Assembly (NCBI RefSeq): GCF_000023445.1
Contig: NC_012881.1
Location: 2,175,501-2,239,500, forward strand
Length of the DNA: 64,000 nt
Direction of reading: 5' to 3'
DNA from: Maridesulfovibrio salexigens DSM 2638
GTDB taxonomy: Bacteria; Desulfobacterota; Desulfovibrionia; Desulfovibrionales; Desulfovibrionaceae
The position numbers and the translations under genes were made by a program. Numbering within the stretch: the stretch's first letter is position 1; each line of letters begins with the position of its first letter. Under the pieces are notes generated by a model, which saw only the letters and a program-made list of their open reading frames with translations, did no database searches and was not told the DNA's origin. Positions 6,640 through 63,496 of the stretch are shown piece by piece.

Positions 6640-8175
6640 ATGTTCTCACCGCTTCCTACCCCTTCAGAAATGTCAAACTGGGACAAAGTCACCATAAATG
6701 AAATCGGCATCAGGGGTGAAATCCTGATGGAAAATGCCGGACGCGAGGCTGTTTTCGCTCTGCTTAAGGGCTACGGCAATGTATCCGGTAAAAAGATTCT
6801 GATCATCGCCGGATCAGGCAATAACGGCGGTGACGGCTTTGTTATGGGCCGCATGCTTGCTGATCTGGGTGCGGAAGTCCTGATCCTGCACACGGCTCCC
6901 AAGAGTAAGTATAAAGGTGATGCAGCCTACATGCTTAAGGTTGCCACACGACTGGGCGTGAACATGAAATTTTTCCGGGCTACGGAAAAAATAATTTTGC
7001 CCGAAGCTGACATCATCATTGATGCCCTGCTCGGCACCGGATTTTCCGGTGAACTGCGCCCCTTTGCCTATGCAATTGTAGAAGCCATCAACGAAGCAAA
7101 GAACAGCTTTATTTTTTCGGTAGATATTCCTTCCGGCTTGAACGGACTGACCGGATTGCCTCAACCTGTTGCTGTTCAGGCTCAAATGACCGTAACTTTT
7201 GAGGAAGCCAAGATTGGTCTTGCTTTGCCACAAGCGGATGCATACACTGGCACTTTAGTGGTCACTCACATAGGTATCCCTAACGAGGTAAAGTACAAGC
7301 ATCCGGCTACACACCTGCTGATCAGGGAAAACGCGCTTGAATTTATTCCTGCGCCCTCCCCGTCCATGCATAAAGGTAGTTCCGGGCACATATTGTTGGT
7401 AGGAGCTTCGAAAGGGTTAACCGGAGCACTGCATCTGGCAGGTATATCCGCCCTGCGTGCCGGAGCCGGACTGGTAACAATGGCCTGCCCGGACGGACTG
7501 GCTGCTGAAGTTAAAGCCGGGAAACCGGAACTGATGACTAAGGGGCTTGGTTCCGGCGATCAATGGAATGATCAAATGATCGCAGAGCTGCTCCCGGAAC
7601 TGGAAAAATACGATGCACTGGTTATAGGACCGGGACTGGGACGCGACAAAGGAGCGCTTGATTTGGTTGAAGCAGTAGTCAAGAACGGACACCCGCCGGC
7701 AGTGTTCGATGCAGATGCTCTTTACGCTTTTGCCAAGTGCCCGGAACTGCTTCAGCAGATAGCCGAGAATTCAATTCTCACCCCGCATCCCGGCGAGATG
7801 GCCCGCATGGTCAACAGTACCATCCCTGAAGTTGAAGCAAAGCGCATCAACACTGCACGTGAGTTTGCAACAGAAAGCAAAACCATAGTCGTTCTTAAGG
7901 GAGCCGGTACAATCATCGGATGCCCGGATGGGCAGATAGTTGTATCTCCGCTTTCCGCCCCCAACCTTGCGGCAGCAGGGTCAGGTGATATTCTGGCAGG
8001 AATGGGCGGAGCTTTGTTGGCCAAAGGAATTCCTGCTATGCAAAGTGCTTGTATCGCGGTATACTGGCATGGACTGGCAGGACAGTATCTGGCTGAAAAT
8101 TTTCCGTATCGAGGAAACATCGCAACTGAAATAGCTGACGTGCTCCCCCAAGTGCTTAAGGAGGAATTATGCTAA
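6640..8175 (+). CDS. nnr: Bifunctional NAD(P)H-hydrate epimerase / ADP-dependent dehydratase
   Basis: Nnr repairs damaged NADHX and NADPHX: the N-terminal YjeF_N domain epimerises the hydrates and the C-terminal ribokinase-like domain dehydrates them using ADP. From ATG at 6640 the protein has 511 residues, normal for the fusion. The N-domain carries IAGSGNNGGDGFVMGR and IIDALLGTG. The C-domain carries HKGSSGHILLVGAS, the NAAAAGSGD-like NLAAAGSGDILAG and ILTPHPGEMARM. The frame is open from 6574, but those 22 extra codons (MGFLNPFAKGFK...) are translated repeat sequence; GGAGG sits 7 bases before the ATG at 6640, so that start is preferred. It overlaps the CBS gene by 7 bases. tsaE follows soon after, echoing the nnr-tsaE neighbourhood of E. 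coli. Confidence 0.96.
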   Translation: MFSPLPTPSEMSNWDKVTINEIGIRGEILMENAGREAVFALLKGYGNVSGKKILIIAGSGNNGGDGFVMGRMLADLGAEVLILHTAPKSKYKGDAAYMLKVATRLGVNMKFFRATEKIILPEADIIIDALLGTGFSGELRPFAYAIVEAINEAKNSFIFSVDIPSGLNGLTGLPQPVAVQAQMTVTFEEAKIGLALPQADAYTGTLVVTHIGIPNEVKYKHPATHLLIRENALEFIPAPSPSMHKGSSGHILLVGASKGLTGALHLAGISALRAGAGLVTMACPDGLAAEVKAGKPELMTKGLGSGDQWNDQMIAELLPELEKYDALVIGPGLGRDKGALDLVEAVVKNGHPPAVFDADALYAFAKCPELLQQIAENSILTPHPGEMARMVNSTIPEVEAKRINTAREFATESKTIVVLKGAGTIIGCPDGQIVVSPLSAPNLAAAGSGDILAGMGGALLAKGIPAMQSACIAVYWHGLAGQYLAENFPYRGNIATEIADVLPQVLKEELC

Positions 8176-52752: not shown

Positions 52753-55700
52753 TTACCATTTTTTCTTACGCTGTTCTTCAAGAGCTGCTTCCTGCTCTTC
52801 AAAAGTGGCAAATCCGGCATGATGCATGGCATCTTCAACGGTCTGGTTCCAATCCCATGCGGAATAGATAACAGGTTTGTGGAAGGTTCCACGGAAGGTA
52901 TCCATTTCCTGTCTGATAAAGGATTCTCTGGGGGAATCCATATTATCACGAAGCTGTTCGTTAAGCCTTCTGATTTCACCTTCGTACCAGTCCTCGAGGT
53001 CTTCGGGAGTCTTGTACTTTTTGATGATGTGGCTGTAACCGTTTTCTTCCATGAGTGTGGCAAGACGTTCAAAATGACGTGCTCTGATCCACTGTCCCAA
53101 CTCACTGACCTTGATATTTTCAGCTTCAACAGCTGCCATATCAAGCTTGGTCTGCAGGTAGGTGTCAGGCACAACGGAAGCGGAAACAATCCCGGCAATG
53201 CAGACTACGCCACGCAGGATTACGCTGTTGGAAACACCCTGTCCGCAAAAACCGATCTTCTTGCCGAACTTTTGTCCGGTGAAGATTGCGGAAAGAATAG
53301 CCCAGACAACTGCCGGATCTTCTTCATCGTAGATATGCTGCAAGCTGGGGTTGTCACGGTCAGTACCGAGAACCAGCTGGGTCATATCGTTGGAGCCGAT
53401 GGAGAATCCGTCAACTTCCTTGATGAATTCCTTGCTGAGTACAGCGTTACTGGGAATCTCAGCCATAAGGATCAGCTTAAGGCCATCTTTACCGGAATCA
53501 AGGTTGTGTACCTGGGACAGATAGCGCTTCATGCTGCGAGCTTCTTCGATAGTACGTACGAAAGGCAGCATAATGTGCAGGTTCTTACCGCCGAACACGC
53601 CGCGCGCAAGCTTGAAGGCTTCCAGTTCCCAGTCATGGATATTTCTGGAAACACCGCGATAACCGAGCATGGGGTTGTCTTCATAGTGTTCGAAGAGCAG
53701 ACCGCCAAGCAGGTTGTGGTATTCGTTGGTCTTGAAATCGGTAGTTCTGTAGACAATATCCTTGCCGTAAAAGGCCATCGCAAACAGAGCCAGGCCCTGA
53801 GACAATGTCTGGATATAATTTTCCTTACCGGTTCTGAGACCACGGGATTTAATAATATCGGCAATGCGCTGGCGAAGAGTGGTGACTTCATCCATTTCAG
53901 ACTTAAGTCCCATCTTGAGAGCCACTTCTTCACGCAGAGCTTTAATCTGTTCAATGTATTCGAGAACAACGGGATTCTCTTTGGCCTTAGCAAGCATCTC
54001 CGGCAGTTCATCAAGGGATTCAGTACGCTTGTAGATGAACTTGGAATCAGCATGCTCCCCGGAATGAATGCCGAGAACGCCGCGAAGATGCTCTTCGATG
54101 TCCACAGAAGTCTTCAGGGTGTAAAGACTTTCGGTGGCATGCTCGAGGTAGTAGTCGAGCTTTTTGTCCAGTTCACGCAGCTTGCGATGCATGGCCAGAA
54201 CTTCTTCGGTTCCGCGTGCGGTATTGGCGTTGGCCATGGAATCCATTTCTTCTGTGAGACCGGTCAACGCGCCGATGTATTCCCTGAGATTAATGTTCAG
54301 GGAAATAAGACCGGAATCAAGCTGGGTCTTCATAACTGTGGTCAGTTTTCCATCCAGCTCATCGAGCTTATCCTGAACCAGCTTATCAAGGGTTCCGTTG
54401 TCATAAGCTTCAAGGGCCAGCGGATGAACACCCACGTTACCGAGCATGAACTCTGCACGCAGCAGGCCGACTTCAAAATCGGGAACTTCTCTCAGGCGGG
54501 AAAGGAACAAAGACTGTCCCACGTCAGCGAGAATCAGACCGACTTTGGTTTTGGTAGCCGGAAGCTCTGCAACATTGATGGTTCCGCCAACCTCGATGAG
54601 AGGCAGTGCGCCGCGGTAAACCTTACCACGTGAACCGTCAACGGTGATTTCCTGACCTTCAAGAGAGCGCAGGACTTCAAGTCTCTGGATACCGATAATA
54701 GCCGGGATTCCAAGCTCACGAGAAGTAATCGCAGCGTGACTGGTATCGCCGCCTACGTCAGCAAGAATACCGGAAGCTATACGCATACCCGGAACCATGT
54801 CTGGGTCGGTACGTTCTGCCGCGAGAATATCGCCCTTATGAATTTTGTTTAGCTCAAGAGCGGAACGGAGATACTTAACAGTTCCCTGCCCTGCTCCGCG
54901 AGATGCACCGTTACCTTCCAGAACAACTTCAGCAGCTTCAAGCTCCTTGGGATCAACCTCAAGCCTGCGCATGAAGATGGAATCAGGATGTTGCTCAAAC
55001 TCTTCGTTCCAGCGGGTTTCAGGACGAGCCTGAACAAACCAGAGACGGTCAGCAGCATCAAGGCAGAACTCGGTATCCATGATCATGCCGCCATAAGCAG
55101 CACTGATGGAACGAACGCCTTTAGCAACTTCTTCAGCTTGAGCAAGGGACAGAGCCCAACGGTAAACAGCACCGGGCTGAACCTTTTCTACCTTGGTTCC
55201 GCCTTTTTCGCTGTATACGATCTTCTTATCCTTGCTGCCCATATTACGGACAACAACTTCAGAACCGTCATCACGCTGGAATACGTAAAATTTATCAGGT
55301 GTAACCATACCGCCGACAACAGCTTCACCAAGACCGTAACTGGCATCAATGGAAACAAGATCCTTGCGGTCAGTTCCACGGCAACCGGTGGCAGTATCAG
55401 CACTGAATGCAGTACCGGAAATTACAGGATTGATCATACGCATGATGCAGACGGAAAGTGAGGTGTTTTCAATAGCCCACTCTTTCTTTGCATCTTCTGC
55501 AATGGAAGCGTCGCCGGTATTCTCTGCCAAGGTAACGGCATCAAGAATGGCTTCACGACGATAGGTCATACTGCGCAGGTTATAAGCGGATGCGCAGTCC
55601 CAGTGATATGCTTCGGCGCACTGGTCTTCGCCGACTATATTCAGATAGGTATCCTGAAGTCCGGCAAAAGCCTTTTTACGGCTGTCTTCACCGGCTGCGG

Positions 55701-56331
55701 AGGAACGTACGGCCACAGGCTCATTCTCAAGCCCTGCATCCTTGCAGATTGAGAGATAAGCTTCCCTGACTGCGGTTTCAACGTCCTTGGGCAGTTCCAC
55801 AGAAAGAATAGCACTCTGAACAAGCACTGATCTTTTGCGTAACTGGTCAATTCCTTCAGGAGAGGTCGCAAAACCTTCAACAACGTTATTAATAAAAGTA
55901 CGCAGCTGAATCTGAGTTTCAGTATGCTTGCCTGCTTCTTCTTTAATTACCTGAGCGATAGAGCGGACAAACTTCTGTAAAAATTCACTGTCACTGTTAA
56001 CTTCTTCACTGCTCCAGTCCACTGCGTTATATTCACTGTCAACAACAGCCCTGACAACGCTTGCATTGACTTTAGTCTCATCCAGCAATTTATGGAACGC
56101 GATAGATGAAACAGCCCTGAACTGGGGAGATCTGATGCCGTCAACCTGACTGATCAATGCGGTATTATAGTTTTTCCCGCCAACCAGCAGTTCTGCATCT
56201 TCACCGATTTTAACGATATCGGCACCGGTTAGAATCAGCTTCTTTTCAAGCTGTTTTTTAGCCTGGGACTTCTTGGGAGCTGCTGCCTCTGCATTTTTAG
56301 CAGAAACTGCTTCTTCCGTCTTACCAGCCAT
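52753..56331 (-). CDS. ppsA: Long-form phosphoenolpyruvate synthase
   Basis: PpsA converts pyruvate, ATP and water to PEP, AMP and phosphate, the gluconeogenic step for growth on lactate or pyruvate. From ATG 56331 (GGAGG upstream) it has 1192 residues against about 800 for E. coli PpsA. Order: a lysine/alanine-rich leader (1-30), an extra N-terminal region (30-200), the ATP-grasp domain (PVAVRSSAAGEDS near 205), the phosphohistidine domain with catalytic His about 532 (GGDTSHAAITSREL), and the PEP-binding barrel with catalytic Cys about 1029 (GFCGQG). The barrel is interrupted by an extra segment of about 150 residues (about 650-835, largely helical), and about 100 residues extend the C-terminus. 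All catalytic motifs are intact. It is preceded by a structured leader. Confidence 0.92.
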   Translation of the reverse strand: MAGKTEEAVSAKNAEAAAPKKSQAKKQLEKKLILTGADIVKIGEDAELLVGGKNYNTALISQVDGIRSPQFRAVSSIAFHKLLDETKVNASVVRAVVDSEYNAVDWSSEEVNSDSEFLQKFVRSIAQVIKEEAGKHTETQIQLRTFINNVVEGFATSPEGIDQLRKRSVLVQSAILSVELPKDVETAVREAYLSICKDAGLENEPVAVRSSAAGEDSRKKAFAGLQDTYLNIVGEDQCAEAYHWDCASAYNLRSMTYRREAILDAVTLAENTGDASIAEDAKKEWAIENTSLSVCIMRMINPVISGTAFSADTATGCRGTDRKDLVSIDASYGLGEAVVGGMVTPDKFYVFQRDDGSEVVVRNMGSKDKKIVYSEKGGTKVEKVQPGAVYRWALSLAQAEEVAKGVRSISAAYGGMIMDTEFCLDAADRLWFVQARPETRWNEEFEQHPDSIFMRRLEVDPKELEAAEVVLEGNGASRGAGQGTVKYLRSALELNKIHKGDILAAERTDPDMVPGMRIASGILADVGGDTSHAAITSRELGIPAIIGIQRLEVLRSLEGQEITVDGSRGKVYRGALPLIEVGGTINVAELPATKTKVGLILADVGQSLFLSRLREVPDFEVGLLRAEFMLGNVGVHPLALEAYDNGTLDKLVQDKLDELDGKLTTVMKTQLDSGLISLNINLREYIGALTGLTEEMDSMANANTARGTEEVLAMHRKLRELDKKLDYYLEHATESLYTLKTSVDIEEHLRGVLGIHSGEHADSKFIYKRTESLDELPEMLAKAKENPVVLEYIEQIKALREEVALKMGLKSEMDEVTTLRQRIADIIKSRGLRTGKENYIQTLSQGLALFAMAFYGKDIVYRTTDFKTNEYHNLLGGLLFEHYEDNPMLGYRGVSRNIHDWELEAFKLARGVFGGKNLHIMLPFVRTIEEARSMKRYLSQVHNLDSGKDGLKLILMAEIPSNAVLSKEFIKEVDGFSIGSNDMTQLVLGTDRDNPSLQHIYDEEDPAVVWAILSAIFTGQKFGKKIGFCGQGVSNSVILRGVVCIAGIVSASVVPDTYLQTKLDMAAVEAENIKVSELGQWIRARHFERLATLMEENGYSHIIKKYKTPEDLEDWYEGEIRRLNEQLRDNMDSPRESFIRQEMDTFRGTFHKPVIYSAWDWNQTVEDAMHHAGFATFEEQEAALEEQRKKKW

Positions 56332-56634
56332 CACTTCCTCCTTACACATCATTACAGATATGCTCTTGGATTTTTTTCTTTAAAATCCGGGTAAATAAGA
56401 TAATCAGTAATCGAAAAGAAATTAACAGAATATAAACAGACATAGCACCCTGCTTTGGCAAAAGACAAGGGCGCTGACAATAAATGATACTGATTCGGGC
56501 GCAAACGGAAGAACTCCGCTGCATTCCGGGCATTGCCGTTATTGGATGAAAAGCTTCCCTTCAGTTCACCCGGCAACAAAGAACAAATTCCTCAGCAACG
56601 CCCGCATGTCAAGCAAAAACAGTATCTAGCTGCA
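56332..56634 (-). promoter_or_regulatory. ppsA: ppsA leader with candidate promoter and hairpins
   Basis: No gene is seen in this stretch. On the minus strand TTGACA lies at 56612-56607. A hairpin TGCCG...CGGCA at 56575-56534 encloses a second pairing (GGTGAA with TTCATC), and a further hairpin lies at 56522-56501 (GCA-G-CGGA / TCCG-TT-TGC). The leader before the ppsA ATG is about 250 bases. It could be a regulatory mRNA leader or a small RNA; no known class was recognised. Confidence 0.4.
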
Positions 56635-57672: not shown

Positions 57673-58812
57673 TTATTCTTTCTTCGAGGACTTGATCTCC
57701 CTGATCATATCAATGAGTTCTTCTTCCACATCATCAGCTTCGCTCTGGTCAATGGCATCGGACGAACGTGAGTCGCGGGTAATGGCTGCGGCAATCTTGG
57801 TGGAAATAGCTGCCAGAATACGTTTTTTGGCGTCATCACCGGCGATAGCCAGCAGGATACCGAGCTTGTAATATCCAAGCTTGCGGAAAACCAGCTTCAA
57901 AGTTCCGATATCCACAAAAATAATATCTTCGACACCTTCAAGTTCATCAATGGACTTGCGTTTCCGCTTTGTCTCTTTAAAATATTGCGCGCCCTTTTTC
58001 TCAACCCATTTGGAAGTTGCTTCCTTATGCAACATACAAATATCTTCAGGGAAATCTCCAACCCCAATCTTTTTGTAGATCATCTCCGGGTTGGAATCGA
58101 CAATTGATGAGAAATCATGAATATCAATAAAGTCTGAAAGAAAGACCTTACCGCTGAACTTGTTGATATCTTCGGAAAGATTCTTGGCTATTTCAAGGAA
58201 ATCATCAGGATTAATGATTGTCAGGTAACTCTGTGATGCGATTTTATTGACCGAAATCATGTTAAATCCAATTGCAGATTTAAGGTGACGTTCGACCTCA
58301 TGCTGCGATCCATTTGTAATCTCGCAATACTCACAGGACAATTCTTCAAGGGTAATCCCGATCGGTGCGTCTTCAGTCTTGGGAGCAGTTTCAAAAATAC
58401 GATGCTTCATGTGCAGCAAGCGGCAAAAGGTAAGCCATGAATTATCGCTGCGGCTTTCGGAGACAGCACGGTCCGCACGGGCAAGACGCGAAGCCAGAAC
58501 TCTGGTCAAATGGAAGACAGTAGGATGACTTTTCTTAAGCAGCAAAAGAATCAACCGCGCAGTCAATTCCAACAGTACGCACTCTGATGCAGCCTCTGCT
58601 CCGGCAACCCTTTCACATTTTGAAATTATTGCCATTTCACCAAAAAGCTCTCCCGGTCCCAAGGTAGCAAGGATTTGTCTTTTACCCTTGATATTTTTAA
58701 CAATATTCACAGTTCCGGACTGAATCATGTATGCGGCATTACCCTTTTCACCTTCCCGGAAAATAACATCGCCCTTGAGAAAAGTTTTAGATTGTGGCTT
58801 GACTGCTGCCAT
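57673..58812 (-). CDS. CRP-like cyclic-nucleotide-binding protein with FliG-C-like tail (paralogue 1)
   Basis: A 379-residue cytoplasmic protein. Residues about 8-120 are a cyclic-nucleotide-binding fold (FLKGDVIFREGEKGNAAYMI; FGEMAIISKCERVAGAEA in the phosphate-binding cassette position). Residues about 150-210 resemble the CRP winged helix (GITLEELSCEY ... VERHLKSAIGFNMISV). Residues about 226-272 form another helix-turn-helix-like segment of excisionase/MerR style (FSSIVDSNPEMIYKKIG ... CMLHKEATSKW). Residues about 292-372 align by eye with FliG C-terminal domains (VEDIIFVDIGTLKLVFRKL ... KRILAAISTKIAAAI). The torque-related FliG charges (DDR) are not kept. It starts one base after the stop of its paralogue, so the two are coupled. 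Confidence 0.72.
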   Translation of the reverse strand: MAAVKPQSKTFLKGDVIFREGEKGNAAYMIQSGTVNIVKNIKGKRQILATLGPGELFGEMAIISKCERVAGAEAASECVLLELTARLILLLLKKSHPTVFHLTRVLASRLARADRAVSESRSDNSWLTFCRLLHMKHRIFETAPKTEDAPIGITLEELSCEYCEITNGSQHEVERHLKSAIGFNMISVNKIASQSYLTIINPDDFLEIAKNLSEDINKFSGKVFLSDFIDIHDFSSIVDSNPEMIYKKIGVGDFPEDICMLHKEATSKWVEKKGAQYFKETKRKRKSIDELEGVEDIIFVDIGTLKLVFRKLGYYKLGILLAIAGDDAKKRILAAISTKIAAAITRDSRSSDAIDQSEADDVEEELIDMIREIKSSKKE

Positions 58813-58813
58813 A

Positions 58814-59989
58814 CTACTTCACTCCCTTCAATTTTCGCACAATATCAAGGAGTTCGTCACAACATTCAAGCACTTCCGGGTCGCTTGGATCACGATCTGC
58901 TGGAGGTTCACGCAGTAAAATTTGAGCAACCTTCTTGCCTACATTTCGCTTGAGCTTATCCCTGCCCTGCTGATCCATGGCGGAGTAGAGAATTGAAATA
59001 TTGTAAAAATTAAACCCTTCGAGAGCCTTTTTAAGGGTCGGATTATCGATAAAAATAATATCTTCCACAGACTCAAGATCTTCAAGGGCCTTGCGTGGCC
59101 TGCGAAACTTCTTAAAGAAATCCGGTTCCTTGCTTTTGCCCCACTCAAGGGCTTTCTCCCGATTAAAAAAGAGCAAGTTTTCAGGCATCTCTTCCTTAAT
59201 GAGTTTTTTATAAATCAGCTCCGGAGTGCTTCCGGTCCTTTCAGCCAAATCAGTAAAACTCATAAAAGTCATACGCTGATCTACATTCGCACCAAGCTCG
59301 CGCATCTGCTTGTAGAGATTGCGTAGATGCGGCATGAACTGCTCGAAATCTTTAATATTAATATAACGTTCAACAAATGCGCTCTTATCGCCCTTTTTGA
59401 TACTTTTTATATCAATCAAACGAAGCTTGAACACTATCTCCAAAAAAGACTCAATTTCAAGATTTGAAAAGGCAGCCAGACTCTTAACTGTTTCGGTGTA
59501 GGACTTCACCGAAAGTCCCATCTTGTAATTTTCAATTTCCCGTTGCTTGTTACGGGGAGTGTAGGCAAATTCCTTGTAAGCGAGATTGAGAATAGCTGCG
59601 AGTGCAATAAATGAGTCATTCTGCTCTGGTCCGGAGGCTTTCATATCAGTCGCAGCGACCCGTTTAGCCAATAGCTCAAGCATCTTACGCACGGTCTCAG
59701 GAGAGGCTCTGAGCAGCTTGTTCATCATCTCTTCAGTCAGCACCACCAATTCGCAAAAACTGGCAGCCTCGGCACTAGCTGTACGTTTTTGATTAGCCAG
59801 TAAAGACATTTCACCAAAGATATCACCACGACGCAGGGTCCCCATGACAGTCTTTTTCTTATCGATAATCTTAAAAATATCGACAGTCCCGGACTTGATC
59901 ATATAGGCAATTTTGCTTTCCTGCCCTTCGCTGAAAATGACCTTACCCTTATGGTAGGTACGAATACTTGGTGCTGTCCTTACAATCAT
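58814..59989 (-). CDS. CRP-like cyclic-nucleotide-binding protein with FliG-C-like tail (paralogue 2)
   Basis: The 391-residue partner has the same layout: cNMP-binding fold about 10-122 (YHKGKVIFSEGQESKIAYMI; FGEMSLLANQKRTASAEA, closer to the canonical R-T/S-A cassette than paralogue 1), a winged-helix-like part about 157-215, and an HTH-like segment 243-284 (SFTDLAERTGSTPELIYKKL ... REKALEW). The FliG-C-like tail spans 305-389 (VEDIIFIDNPTLKKALEGF ... DKLKRNVGKKVAQILLRE ... CCDELLDIVRKL). The FliG phrase FEDI-x-x-LDD-x-x-[IL]Q aligns with VEDI-x-x-ID. It is first in the pair and lies 38 bases after the TVP38-type gene, suggesting one operon. The role is unknown; a signal-responsive scaffold or regulator is my inference. 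Confidence 0.72.
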   Translation of the reverse strand: MIVRTAPSIRTYHKGKVIFSEGQESKIAYMIKSGTVDIFKIIDKKKTVMGTLRRGDIFGEMSLLANQKRTASAEAASFCELVVLTEEMMNKLLRASPETVRKMLELLAKRVAATDMKASGPEQNDSFIALAAILNLAYKEFAYTPRNKQREIENYKMGLSVKSYTETVKSLAAFSNLEIESFLEIVFKLRLIDIKSIKKGDKSAFVERYINIKDFEQFMPHLRNLYKQMRELGANVDQRMTFMSFTDLAERTGSTPELIYKKLIKEEMPENLLFFNREKALEWGKSKEPDFFKKFRRPRKALEDLESVEDIIFIDNPTLKKALEGFNFYNISILYSAMDQQGRDKLKRNVGKKVAQILLREPPADRDPSDPEVLECCDELLDIVRKLKGVK

Positions 59990-60027: not shown

Positions 60028-60708
60028 TTACACATTACGTCGAACCTTAACAAGTCCGACTATCTTTTTCACCACCAATGGGAATATTCCCAGCAGCGCG
60101 AAGGAGATCAGCAATCCGGGCTGAACTATCCCGGAAAGAGAATCAATCTTCCCAAGTTCTTTTCCGGCATTAACATACACCATTGTTCCGGGCAGCATGC
60201 CCAGCTGTGAAACCCAATAAAAAGTTCTCAATCTGATTGTGGTAAGCCCCATAAGCAAATTGATAACCACAAAGGGAATGGCCGGGATAAGCCGCATTGT
60301 AAAAAGATAAAACGCACCTTCTTCTTCGATACCCCGGTTAACCTTCTCCAGCCGGTCTCCGAATTTTCGCTGCACGTAATCCCTGAACAAGTGACGCGAA
60401 AAAAAACAAGCCAGTGTAGCACCGATAGTGCTGGCAAATGATATCGTCAGCACCCCTACGGTAAAGCCAAACAAAGCTCCCCCCGCCAGCCCAAGCACAG
60501 TTGCACCGGGGAGGTTCACTCCAACAACCAGCACATAAACCAGAAAAAATGAAAAAACAGTTAAAAATGGGTTCTGATCATAAAAGACTTGGAACTCCTG
60601 CCTTGAATTTTTTATATATTCAAGAGTCAGGAACCTATCCAAATCAAACGCAAAAAACAGCGCCACAACAACTGCAATAAACGTAATTATGAGTATTTTA
60701 TTTTTCAT
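60028..60708 (-). CDS. TVP38/TMEM64-family (VTT domain) membrane protein
   Basis: A 226-residue inner-membrane protein with about five to six hydrophobic segments. The VTT/SNARE-associated core is GATVLGLAGGALFGFTVGVL (about 68-87), ATLACFFSRHLFRDYVQRKF and FTMRLIPAIPFVVINLLMGL (about 137-156), matching YdjX/YdjZ-type proteins. Related DedA-superfamily members are lipid scramblases or flippases, so membrane lipid transport is plausible but unproven. It heads the minus-strand run containing the two CRP/FliG-C-like genes. Confidence 0.92.
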   Translation of the reverse strand: MKNKILIITFIAVVVALFFAFDLDRFLTLEYIKNSRQEFQVFYDQNPFLTVFSFFLVYVLVVGVNLPGATVLGLAGGALFGFTVGVLTISFASTIGATLACFFSRHLFRDYVQRKFGDRLEKVNRGIEEEGAFYLFTMRLIPAIPFVVINLLMGLTTIRLRTFYWVSQLGMLPGTMVYVNAGKELGKIDSLSGIVQPGLLISFALLGIFPLVVKKIVGLVKVRRNV

Positions 60709-61961: not shown

Positions 61962-62453
61962 CTACTCGAACAAATACTTATATTCCCCAGCCACTTTATC
62001 TGTAGTATTCATCAATCCGGCAGCACTGTTTTCCACATTGCGGGAATTCACAAGACCAAGTTCCTGCTTAAGATAAAAAGGAACTACCCCCTCGCTCTCC
62101 GCAAAAGTCCAGACCACTGAATAAACAGAACCGATCTCCGGCCTTTCATTGAATTCACTGCGTGATTCAATAATTACCCGTACAGCCTTCCCATCTTTTC
62201 CGGCCAATTTAAAAAGCACGGACTTCCTAAAGTTCTCCTTTAACTTTAATGCCAAAGTACCACCCAACACGTCATCACCACTATGAATGACCGCTACAGG
62301 AACTCCTTGTTTTTCAGCACTCTGCTCTACTTTTTCGACCGGAGCAGGTTTAGCCTTGGAATTTGGTACTGCCTTTTTCTCTTCAGCCGAAGCAATTGAC
62401 CCCAAGCAAAGTACAAGTAGCAATATCAACGCGGAACCAAGTAATTTTTTCAT
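61962..62453 (-). CDS. Exported protein of unknown function (163 aa)
   Basis: Not recognised. A signal peptide (MKKLLGSALILLLVLCLGSIASA) is followed by a short proline/lysine linker (to about 50) and an alpha-beta domain. The domain contains VAVIHSGDDVLGGTLALKLK, FKLAGKDGKAVRVIIESRSE and VVWTFAESEGVVPFYLKQEL. No cysteine lies near the cleavage site, so it is probably soluble in the periplasm. Its ATG overlaps the stop of the upstream gene (ATGA, 62450-62453) and AAGGAG precedes it, so the two unknown genes form one transcription unit. Confidence 0.72.
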   Translation of the reverse strand: MKKLLGSALILLLVLCLGSIASAEEKKAVPNSKAKPAPVEKVEQSAEKQGVPVAVIHSGDDVLGGTLALKLKENFRKSVLFKLAGKDGKAVRVIIESRSEFNERPEIGSVYSVVWTFAESEGVVPFYLKQELGLVNSRNVENSAAGLMNTTDKVAGEYKYLFE

Positions 62454-63235
62454 AACAACTCCTTATTCGCATTCGTTTTCAACTCTTCTATCAAGGCTTT
62501 CACCCGGACCTTGTCACGCGCCCAGACCTGTGAACAGTAACCGGAAATATACGTTGCAACGTCCTTACGATTAGGCAGGTCCGGGAAGGCCGGAAAATCG
62601 ATATCTTTAATTGTGATCACAGTGAAAGCCATCTCATCATCGATTACCTTACATTGAGGCCCCACACATCCGGCTATGCTTTCCTTCCTTACTGATTCAG
62701 GATCGAGAGACTTGGTAAATTTAAGAACATCCGAAGCTGAAACATTTCTATTAACCTTCTCAATTTGAATGTTAATTTCTTCGGCCATTTTGAAAAAATC
62801 ATCCCGATTTACTGACCGCACTTTACGTCCATTCTCATCCTTTTTGATTGAACCGTGCATGTATTCTTCAATACTTGCGGAAAGCATATCGTAGCCAATA
62901 CCAAACCACTTGATATATTCCCCTCTGCCGGTAAAAGCGAAAGGAGGGCTATCTATGATGTCAGCACATTCAATCCCGGCGGGATGATAAAACTTATTCC
63001 TGCTCATCCCGGCAGAAACCCAAAAATCATTGAAACCGGAAGGCCCCAGACAGATTTTCTCAAGCAGCGCACAGGCCCGAAAAACCTGATAAAGTTTAAC
63101 ATGGAGTTTTTCTGAAACCTCATGAAACAGCTCAATGGCATCATCAACGTCCACGCGAGCTCCAAAAAAGGAATCCGCCATGTCACTCAGGACCTCATCC
63201 GTCAAAGCATCGGTTAAATCTTTAAAATCAGCCAT
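62450..63235 (-). CDS. Cytoplasmic protein of unknown function (261 aa)
   Basis: Not recognised. ATG 63235 with AAAGGAAAT upstream is preferred over an in-frame ATG nine codons earlier. The 261 residues are acidic and mostly helical, with DVDDAIELFHEVSEKLHVKL near the N-terminus, an aromatic-rich middle (FNDFWVSAGMSRNKFYHPAG; EYIKWFGIGYDM) and a late segment CVGPQCKVIDDEMAFTVITI. No signal peptide or catalytic motif is obvious. It is coupled by a 4-base overlap to an exported protein gene. Confidence 0.72.
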   Translation of the reverse strand: MADFKDLTDALTDEVLSDMADSFFGARVDVDDAIELFHEVSEKLHVKLYQVFRACALLEKICLGPSGFNDFWVSAGMSRNKFYHPAGIECADIIDSPPFAFTGRGEYIKWFGIGYDMLSASIEEYMHGSIKKDENGRKVRSVNRDDFFKMAEEINIQIEKVNRNVSASDVLKFTKSLDPESVRKESIAGCVGPQCKVIDDEMAFTVITIKDIDFPAFPDLPNRKDVATYISGYCSQVWARDKVRVKALIEELKTNANKELL

Positions 63236-63496
63236 AATATTTCCTTTAAAACTGTAGCTCAAAACTTTATACGGATATTTTTTATTTCCGCTCTATCCTT
63301 TTGTTTTTAGCATTTTCCAGACTAAACAAGCATTCAAACTACAAATGAAATCATTAATTAACCTTGAGAGTGCCATATAATTGAATTATACGCCAATGGT
63401 ACGAGTATCATTCAAATGATGATTGTTCGATAAAATTCAACAGTTAAATAACCTGCTCAATTTAACTGAACCTACATCAGACATACTGGAGGGAGT

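Follow-up and report, generated by a model that had tools for sequence, protein, structure and literature searches.

The flagellar clutch protein EpsE has a glycosyltransferase fold. Passages of a 2026 review report that EpsE of Bacillus subtilis binds FliG and uncouples the rotor from the stator; for direct motor control they name only this clutch and the brakes that respond to cyclic di-GMP (c-di-GMP), and they describe cyclic AMP (cAMP) as acting with CRP on transcription (PMC13432727). In the literature that we found, direct control of the motor by a second messenger works through effectors of c-di-GMP. One of these is YcgR, whose C-terminal tail contacts the MotA residues that touch the torque helix of FliG (PMC12713396). 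Bd2879 of Bdellovibrio has been described as a putative transcription factor that binds cyclic nucleotides; it contains two winged-helix domains, and its tail is a disordered zinc finger (PMC12750041). Here we describe two adjacent genes, P1 and P2, in a stretch of 64,000 nucleotides of the Maridesulfovibrio salexigens DSM 2638 genome (NC_012881.1, positions 2,175,501 to 2,239,500; hereafter the window), together with the family to which they belong, in which a cyclic-nucleotide-binding domain (CNBD) is followed by winged-helix-like and helix-turn-helix-like (HTH-like) segments and by a FliG_C domain. Open-licence papers yielded no CNBD-FliG_C protein and no stator regulator dependent on a cyclic mononucleotide.

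How does this family compare with the described systems? Its proposed logic would resemble that of the YcgR/PilZ brake, in that a nucleotide sensor would sit on the MotA surface facing FliG, but the sensor is here a CNBD (for a mononucleotide), the would-be interacting part is a real FliG-C homologue and the gene lies inside a stator operon. Pfam scans of P1, P2 and 44 family members gave no match to the PilZ domain. As with EpsE, the proposed effect may be to uncouple rotor and stator; EpsE, however, binds FliG, whereas the present protein carries a copy of FliG-C. Our preferred reading, to which we assign a probability of roughly 55%, is that the family comprises cyclic-nucleotide-controlled regulators that dock a FliG-C mimic on a dedicated stator, the main member being encoded first in the stator operon. 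There is a substantial chance that such a second-messenger motor regulator works by a new mechanism.

A cyclic-nucleotide sensor joined to the C-terminal domain of FliG

P1 and P2 are both read from the minus strand, and a single base separates the stop codon of P2 from the ATG of P1. They are paralogues from end to end (29% identity over 385 residues), as the initial annotation had proposed at the same coordinates, and both contain the cyclic-nucleotide-binding fold that it described. Their features are as follows.

58814..59989, minus strand: P2, 391 residues, CNBD - winged-helix-like - HTH-like - FliG_C; upstream gene of the pair
59705..59962, minus strand: P2 cyclic-nucleotide-binding domain, residues 10-95 (Pfam PF00027, E 1.9e-20; cassette FGEM...RTAS)
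59357..59614, minus strand: P2 winged-helix-like segment, residues 126-211 (AlphaFold helices 126-142, 161-171 and 176-188, strands 193-198 and 206-211)
59132..59263, minus strand: P2 second HTH-like segment, residues 243-286 (AlphaFold helices 245-252, 256-264 and 277-285)
58829..59071, minus strand: P2 FliG_C domain, residues 307-387 (Pfam, family scan, PDB profile, AlphaFold)
57673..58812, minus strand: P1, 379 residues, same architecture; downstream gene of the pair
58534..58788, minus strand: P1 cyclic-nucleotide-binding domain, residues 9-93 (Pfam PF00027, E 7.3e-22; cassette FGEM...RVAG)
57958..58470, minus strand: P1 middle region, about residues 115-285 (family alignment to the winged-helix-like and HTH-like segments)
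57688..57942, minus strand: P1 FliG_C domain, residues 291-375 (Pfam PF01706, 28.0 bits; tail model below; Foldseek FliG probability 1.00)

Is the homology of the tail to FliG real? The P1 match lies above the curated Pfam cut-off of 23.3 bits, and the P2 match, at 17.6 bits, lies below it. We gathered 93 full-length relatives and used an alignment of 44 members for the Pfam family scan, in which FliG_C was found in every member (best E 4.8e-12). A profile of the last 158 residues, compared with the PDB at a significance threshold of E<0.01, gave 11 matches, all of them FliG chains (best E 1.6e-11). Over 247 genomes the same profile retrieved the family first and then, in most genomes, the C-terminus of genuine FliG. 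An AlphaFold model of the P1 tail is confident (predicted local distance difference test score, pLDDT, 88) and superimposed best on FliG: on 1qc7, the isolated C-terminal domain of Thermotoga maritima FliG, with a template-modelling (TM) score of 0.84 at 2.2 Å, and on 8ucs, FliG bound to the MotAB stator, with a TM score of 0.77 at 2.1 Å. Foldseek returned no other confident fold for this model. Because all 44 members match and both the PDB profile and the fold search hit only FliG, the P2 match is secure at the family level.

That the FliG_C match is a chance resemblance between short helical bundles is thus a negligible prospect, already refuted by the profile and fold results. It could draw on the score of P2 taken alone and on the modest Foldseek E-values (best 0.0017), but it runs against the family-wide and PDB matches, against the genome-wide search in which FliG C-termini are the first significant matches outside the family, and against the adjacency to motA and motB described below. 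The identity of the tail is therefore confirmed, as is the resemblance first noticed by eye. The outcomes that the initial annotation had named as refuting it, no FliG-C match by profile or a tail fold other than an armadillo-like helical bundle, do not overturn it. The tail corresponds to the C-terminal helical subdomain of FliG, as in 1qc7, rather than to the armadillo part.

The N-terminal and middle domains of FliG, which serve binding to FliF and FliM and carry the EHPQR motif, are absent, as had been supposed. FliG_M has no match in the family, residues 1-290 being occupied by the CNBD and the HTH-like segments. FliG_N matched weakly in 9 of the 44 members; we rejected it as a separate domain, since in P1 the match (13.5 bits, residues 315-374) falls on the same C-terminal helices. 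A genuine FliG is also retained in the same genome.

Elsewhere in this genome, next to glnA, a 369-residue protein (L009:709-1818, minus strand) has a FliG_C-like N-terminal stretch, which scores 23.9 bits when the genome is searched and 20.8 bits by hmmscan, and no other known domain, a possible second reuse of the FliG-C fold.

The main family member is encoded directly upstream of motA

A third paralogue in the same genome, 35% identical to P2 and with a FliG_C score of 34.9 bits, has a stop codon that overlaps the start of motA by 4 bp; motB then follows. Pfam identifies these neighbours as MotA_ExbB (E 1.2e-27) and as MotB_plug (E 2.5e-17) with OmpA (E 5.4e-19), which P1 and P2 do not have beside them. 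Leaving aside P1, P2 and two stray copies, the relatives define 59 stator loci, and motA is directly downstream at all 59: the genes overlap by 4 bp at 44 loci and by 1 bp at 13, and the remaining two junctions are gaps of 3 bp and 58 bp.

We surveyed this domain order across 297 genomes of the order, counting the partner MotA at a threshold of E<=1e-60; every full-length match reached 1.9e-103 or better, and one truncated copy scored 8.7e-77. A full-length family member is present in 66 genomes and the MotA subfamily in 65, all among the 66; none of the 231 genomes lacking the family protein contains it (Fisher p 2e-65, the counts being uncorrected for shared ancestry). The exception, G251, has a very diverged stray family member and no MotA of this subfamily. 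In all 65 genomes with the subfamily, which span 17 genera of a single family, Desulfovibrionaceae, the arrangement is [CNBD-FliG_C]-motA-motB. The initial annotation had suggested that the FliG-C fold was recruited for signalling or scaffolding, possibly linking a nucleotide signal to the motor or to gene control. A link to the motor now has stronger support than sequence alone gave it, because the orthologues show translational coupling to motA-motB and accompany a single MotA subfamily in 65 of 65 genomes. The initial observation is confirmed and its interpretation partly supported.

In genus g30 a second, diverged family member (L046:6136-8166, minus strand, real start probably near 7326) lies about 1.2 kb downstream of motB, past one opposite-strand gene from the stator operon, and represents a separate expansion of the family.

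Both sides of the predicted interface between MotA and the FliG-C-like tail are altered

We take the torque charges of FliG to be K264, R281, D288, D289 and R297 in Escherichia coli numbering, and checked these letters on the sequence. Mapped onto this numbering, the DDR of VDDRSIQ, which the initial annotation had named as torque-associated, does not belong to the set. The charges R281 and D288-D289 pair with MotA E98 and R90 (PMC12505986), and it is these central charges that the stator-operon members keep (n=59): K stands at position 281 in 57, an acid (D or E) at 288 in 55 and E at 289 in 57. K264 is replaced by S or A (55/59) and R297 by D or E (55/59). The family shares with FliG the C-terminal helical subdomain, by profile and by fold, and its stator-operon members keep the charges at 281, 288 and 289; it differs in lacking the N-terminal and middle domains, in the loss of K264, in a mostly acidic residue at 297 and in its fusion to a cyclic-nucleotide sensor.

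P1 and P2 depart further, with positions 264, 288 and 297 altered among their 32 sequences. P1 retains K281 and an acidic 289 in 16 of 16 sequences, and its residue 288 is basic, K or R, in 15 of these; P2 retains K281 and E289 in 16 of 16 and an acidic 288 in just 3 of 16. The statement that the torque charges are lost therefore fails for the family, whose stator-operon members keep 281, 288 and 289, and holds in part for P1 and P2, where the acid at 288 is gone.

The partner MotA (L043:10162-10938, plus strand) has changed as well. E98 is present in 58 of 58 sequences, position 90 is S or A in 51 and position 92 is K or R in 53, whereas the genome's four further MotA-like proteins have R at 90 in three cases and K in the fourth, a degenerate one. 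The partner MotA is a distinct subfamily across the 17 genera. Thus, neither side matches the standard MotA-FliG pair, although the central charges are kept. Because the two partners have changed in concert, with R90 moved in MotA and the charges of FliG-C either kept or reversed, the system offers a natural test of the MotA-FliG interface.

The sensor domain and the middle region

The cNMP_binding domain (PF00027) was found in 44 of 44 members, and the phosphate-cassette residues G59, E60 and R69 are invariant across all 32 P1 and P2 sequences. The residue that follows the cassette arginine differs consistently: 15 of 16 P1 sequences have V, whereas 16 of 16 P2 sequences have T or S. The divergence in ligand that had been read from RVAG and RTAS is a weak suggestion: the difference is consistent but, with the key G, E and R unchanged, does not establish differing ligands. 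The nucleotide cyclases encoded in the genome are three of class III and an adenylate cyclase of class I type, and the predicted ligand is cAMP or cyclic GMP (cGMP).

The full-length AlphaFold model of P2 (pLDDT 82) comprises a CNBD beta-roll with its C-helix, a winged-helix-like segment, an HTH-like segment and the FliG-C helices; the predicted TM score is low (0.38), so that the placement of the domains is uncertain. The family shares with CRP/FNR regulators a CNBD with the FGE...R phosphate cassette but differs from them in its middle region, where HTH_Crp had no match in any of the 44 members at E<=0.1. We accordingly rejected a CRP-type identity for this region. Of the CRP-like winged helix proposed initially, the winged-helix-like secondary structure in the AlphaFold model remains; likewise, the second HTH-like segment is seen as AlphaFold helices, and by sequence it is weakly supported, with HTH_17 matching just 2 of 44 members (best E 0.017).

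Is the family then a set of transcription factors? The best fold match of the full-length P2 model is 9sfa, Bd2879, which likewise has a CNBD followed by two winged-helix/HTH domains and ends in a disordered zinc-finger tail in place of FliG_C. By this account the proteins would be cyclic-nucleotide-responsive transcription factors of the Bd2879 type (PMC12750041), the tail an oligomerisation or partner module, and the gene would adjoin motAB because it regulates that operon. The winged-helix-like secondary structure fits this account, as does the genomic context of relatives outside Desulfovibrionaceae. When we searched with a closer alignment, 13 full-length relatives came first, all from assemblies of Desulfovibrionaceae type, whether named or unclassified, followed mostly by CNBD-only matches in other groups. 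In a sample of the phylum, f11, represented by three incomplete genomes, was the only other family with the whole architecture (FliG_C 46 bits; CNBD E 4e-18):

L235:3725-4939, minus strand: f11 relative, CNBD-HTH-FliG_C
L145:4891-6105, plus strand: f11 relative, CNBD-HTH-FliG_C
L147:4440-5690, minus strand: f11 relative, CNBD-HTH-FliG_C

These relatives adjoin a cluster of CheB-like, response-regulator/GGDEF and kinase genes and are not beside motA; a genuine fliG lies about 7 kb away in one of the genomes (G338, L235:12302-13351). Thus, the tail can occur apart from a stator gene, and it is again found in a chemosensory or flagellar setting.

We regard the transcription-factor account as unlikely. 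Neither HTH_Crp nor any other strong DNA-binding family matched the 44 members, and by sequence profile the middle region matched no solved HTH in the PDB, Bd2879 included, so that DNA binding is possible but unsupported. Moreover, translational coupling to motA would be unusual for a regulator, and the MotA-facing charges kept in a torque-domain tail would be unneeded for binding DNA.

A proposed model for cyclic-nucleotide control of a dedicated stator

What could such a protein do at the stator? We propose that the CNBD, probably a dimer formed through its C-helix, binds cAMP or cGMP and that binding of this cyclic mononucleotide alters the exposure of the FliG-C-like tail. The tail would then dock onto cytoplasmic loops in the ring of the partner MotA, at the usual seat of the FliG torque helix. 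Docking would gate the stator, either by competing with the rotor, as a brake or clutch would, or by holding or recruiting the stator; whether the effect is that of a brake, a clutch or a recruiter is not readable from sequence.

A related possibility is that the protein assists the assembly, stability or selection of stators: the FliG-C mimic would hold the dedicated MotAB before it enters the motor, and the nucleotide would set which stator is loaded, so that the cell chooses among several sets. The genome has four further MotA-like/MotB-like loci without such a partner protein, the family co-occurs strictly with only one MotA subfamily, and the R90 region of that MotA is altered, all of which would suit selection. 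Such a chaperone role would differ from regulation by docking only in the direction of the effect, and it seems to us quite improbable.

Several observations weigh against regulation by docking on the stator. The co-occurrence counts carry no correction for shared ancestry, and the association could arise from co-regulation of expression, with no contact between the proteins. K264 is lost and R297 has become D or E in most stator-operon members, so that the tail departs from a plain FliG-C copy. Finally, the f11 relatives lie apart from motA, and the window has no motility genes near P1 and P2.

If regulation by docking is correct, it would provide a direct route from a cyclic mononucleotide to the motor and a case of FliG-C reused outside the C-ring, and it would make the choice among several stators testable in culturable Desulfovibrionaceae. 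We give somewhat less than even odds to a fuller version: a new class of motor control in which a cyclic-mononucleotide sensor with a decoy torque domain, made from the same operon as a dedicated stator and co-evolving with it (its MotA having lost R90), lets cAMP or cGMP directly engage or disengage that stator, P1 and P2 retuning the response in one genus.

P1 and P2 are a diverged pair confined to one genus

Within the Desulfovibrionaceae protein family, P1 and P2 form a tandem of diverged paralogues specific to one genus. In a maximum-likelihood tree each forms one group (support 100 for both), the two groups are not sisters, and both are confined to the genus of the window; because both branches are long, their exact origin is unsure. 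The pair is retained in 16 of 17 sampled genomes of the genus, each time behind the same gene:

60028..60708, minus strand: VTT-domain (DedA/TVP38-like) membrane protein, conserved neighbour upstream of the pair

The seventeenth genome, G155, has only a decayed tail fragment with two stop codons (G155:C2:300765-300968, minus strand), and its stator-operon copy is intact.

Have P1 and P2 left the motor? They may serve another process, such as membrane or envelope signalling with the VTT-domain protein, in which the FliG-C fold would act as a scaffold. Their restriction to one genus beside a conserved VTT gene, their distance from motility genes, the loss of the acidic 288 and the decayed remnant in G155 all point that way. 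Both proteins nevertheless keep a recognisable FliG_C tail, K281 and an acidic 289 in 32 of 32 sequences, and the whole domain order, and we consider such a departure a minority possibility, rather unlikely on balance. Under regulation of the stator by docking, P1 and P2, with the sensor kept and the acid equivalent to FliG D288 lost, would most likely act in trans as modulators of that pathway, for instance as a heterodimer whose docking is altered.

Two further features of the window were noted. Adjacent open reading frames of 163 and 270 residues (61962-62453 and 62450-63262, both minus strand) have no Pfam match. At 52753-56352 (minus strand), a 1199-residue PPDK_N/phosphoenolpyruvate (PEP)-utiliser protein contains a long stretch without domain match, about residues 577-850, that separates its mobile domain from its PEP-binding domain.
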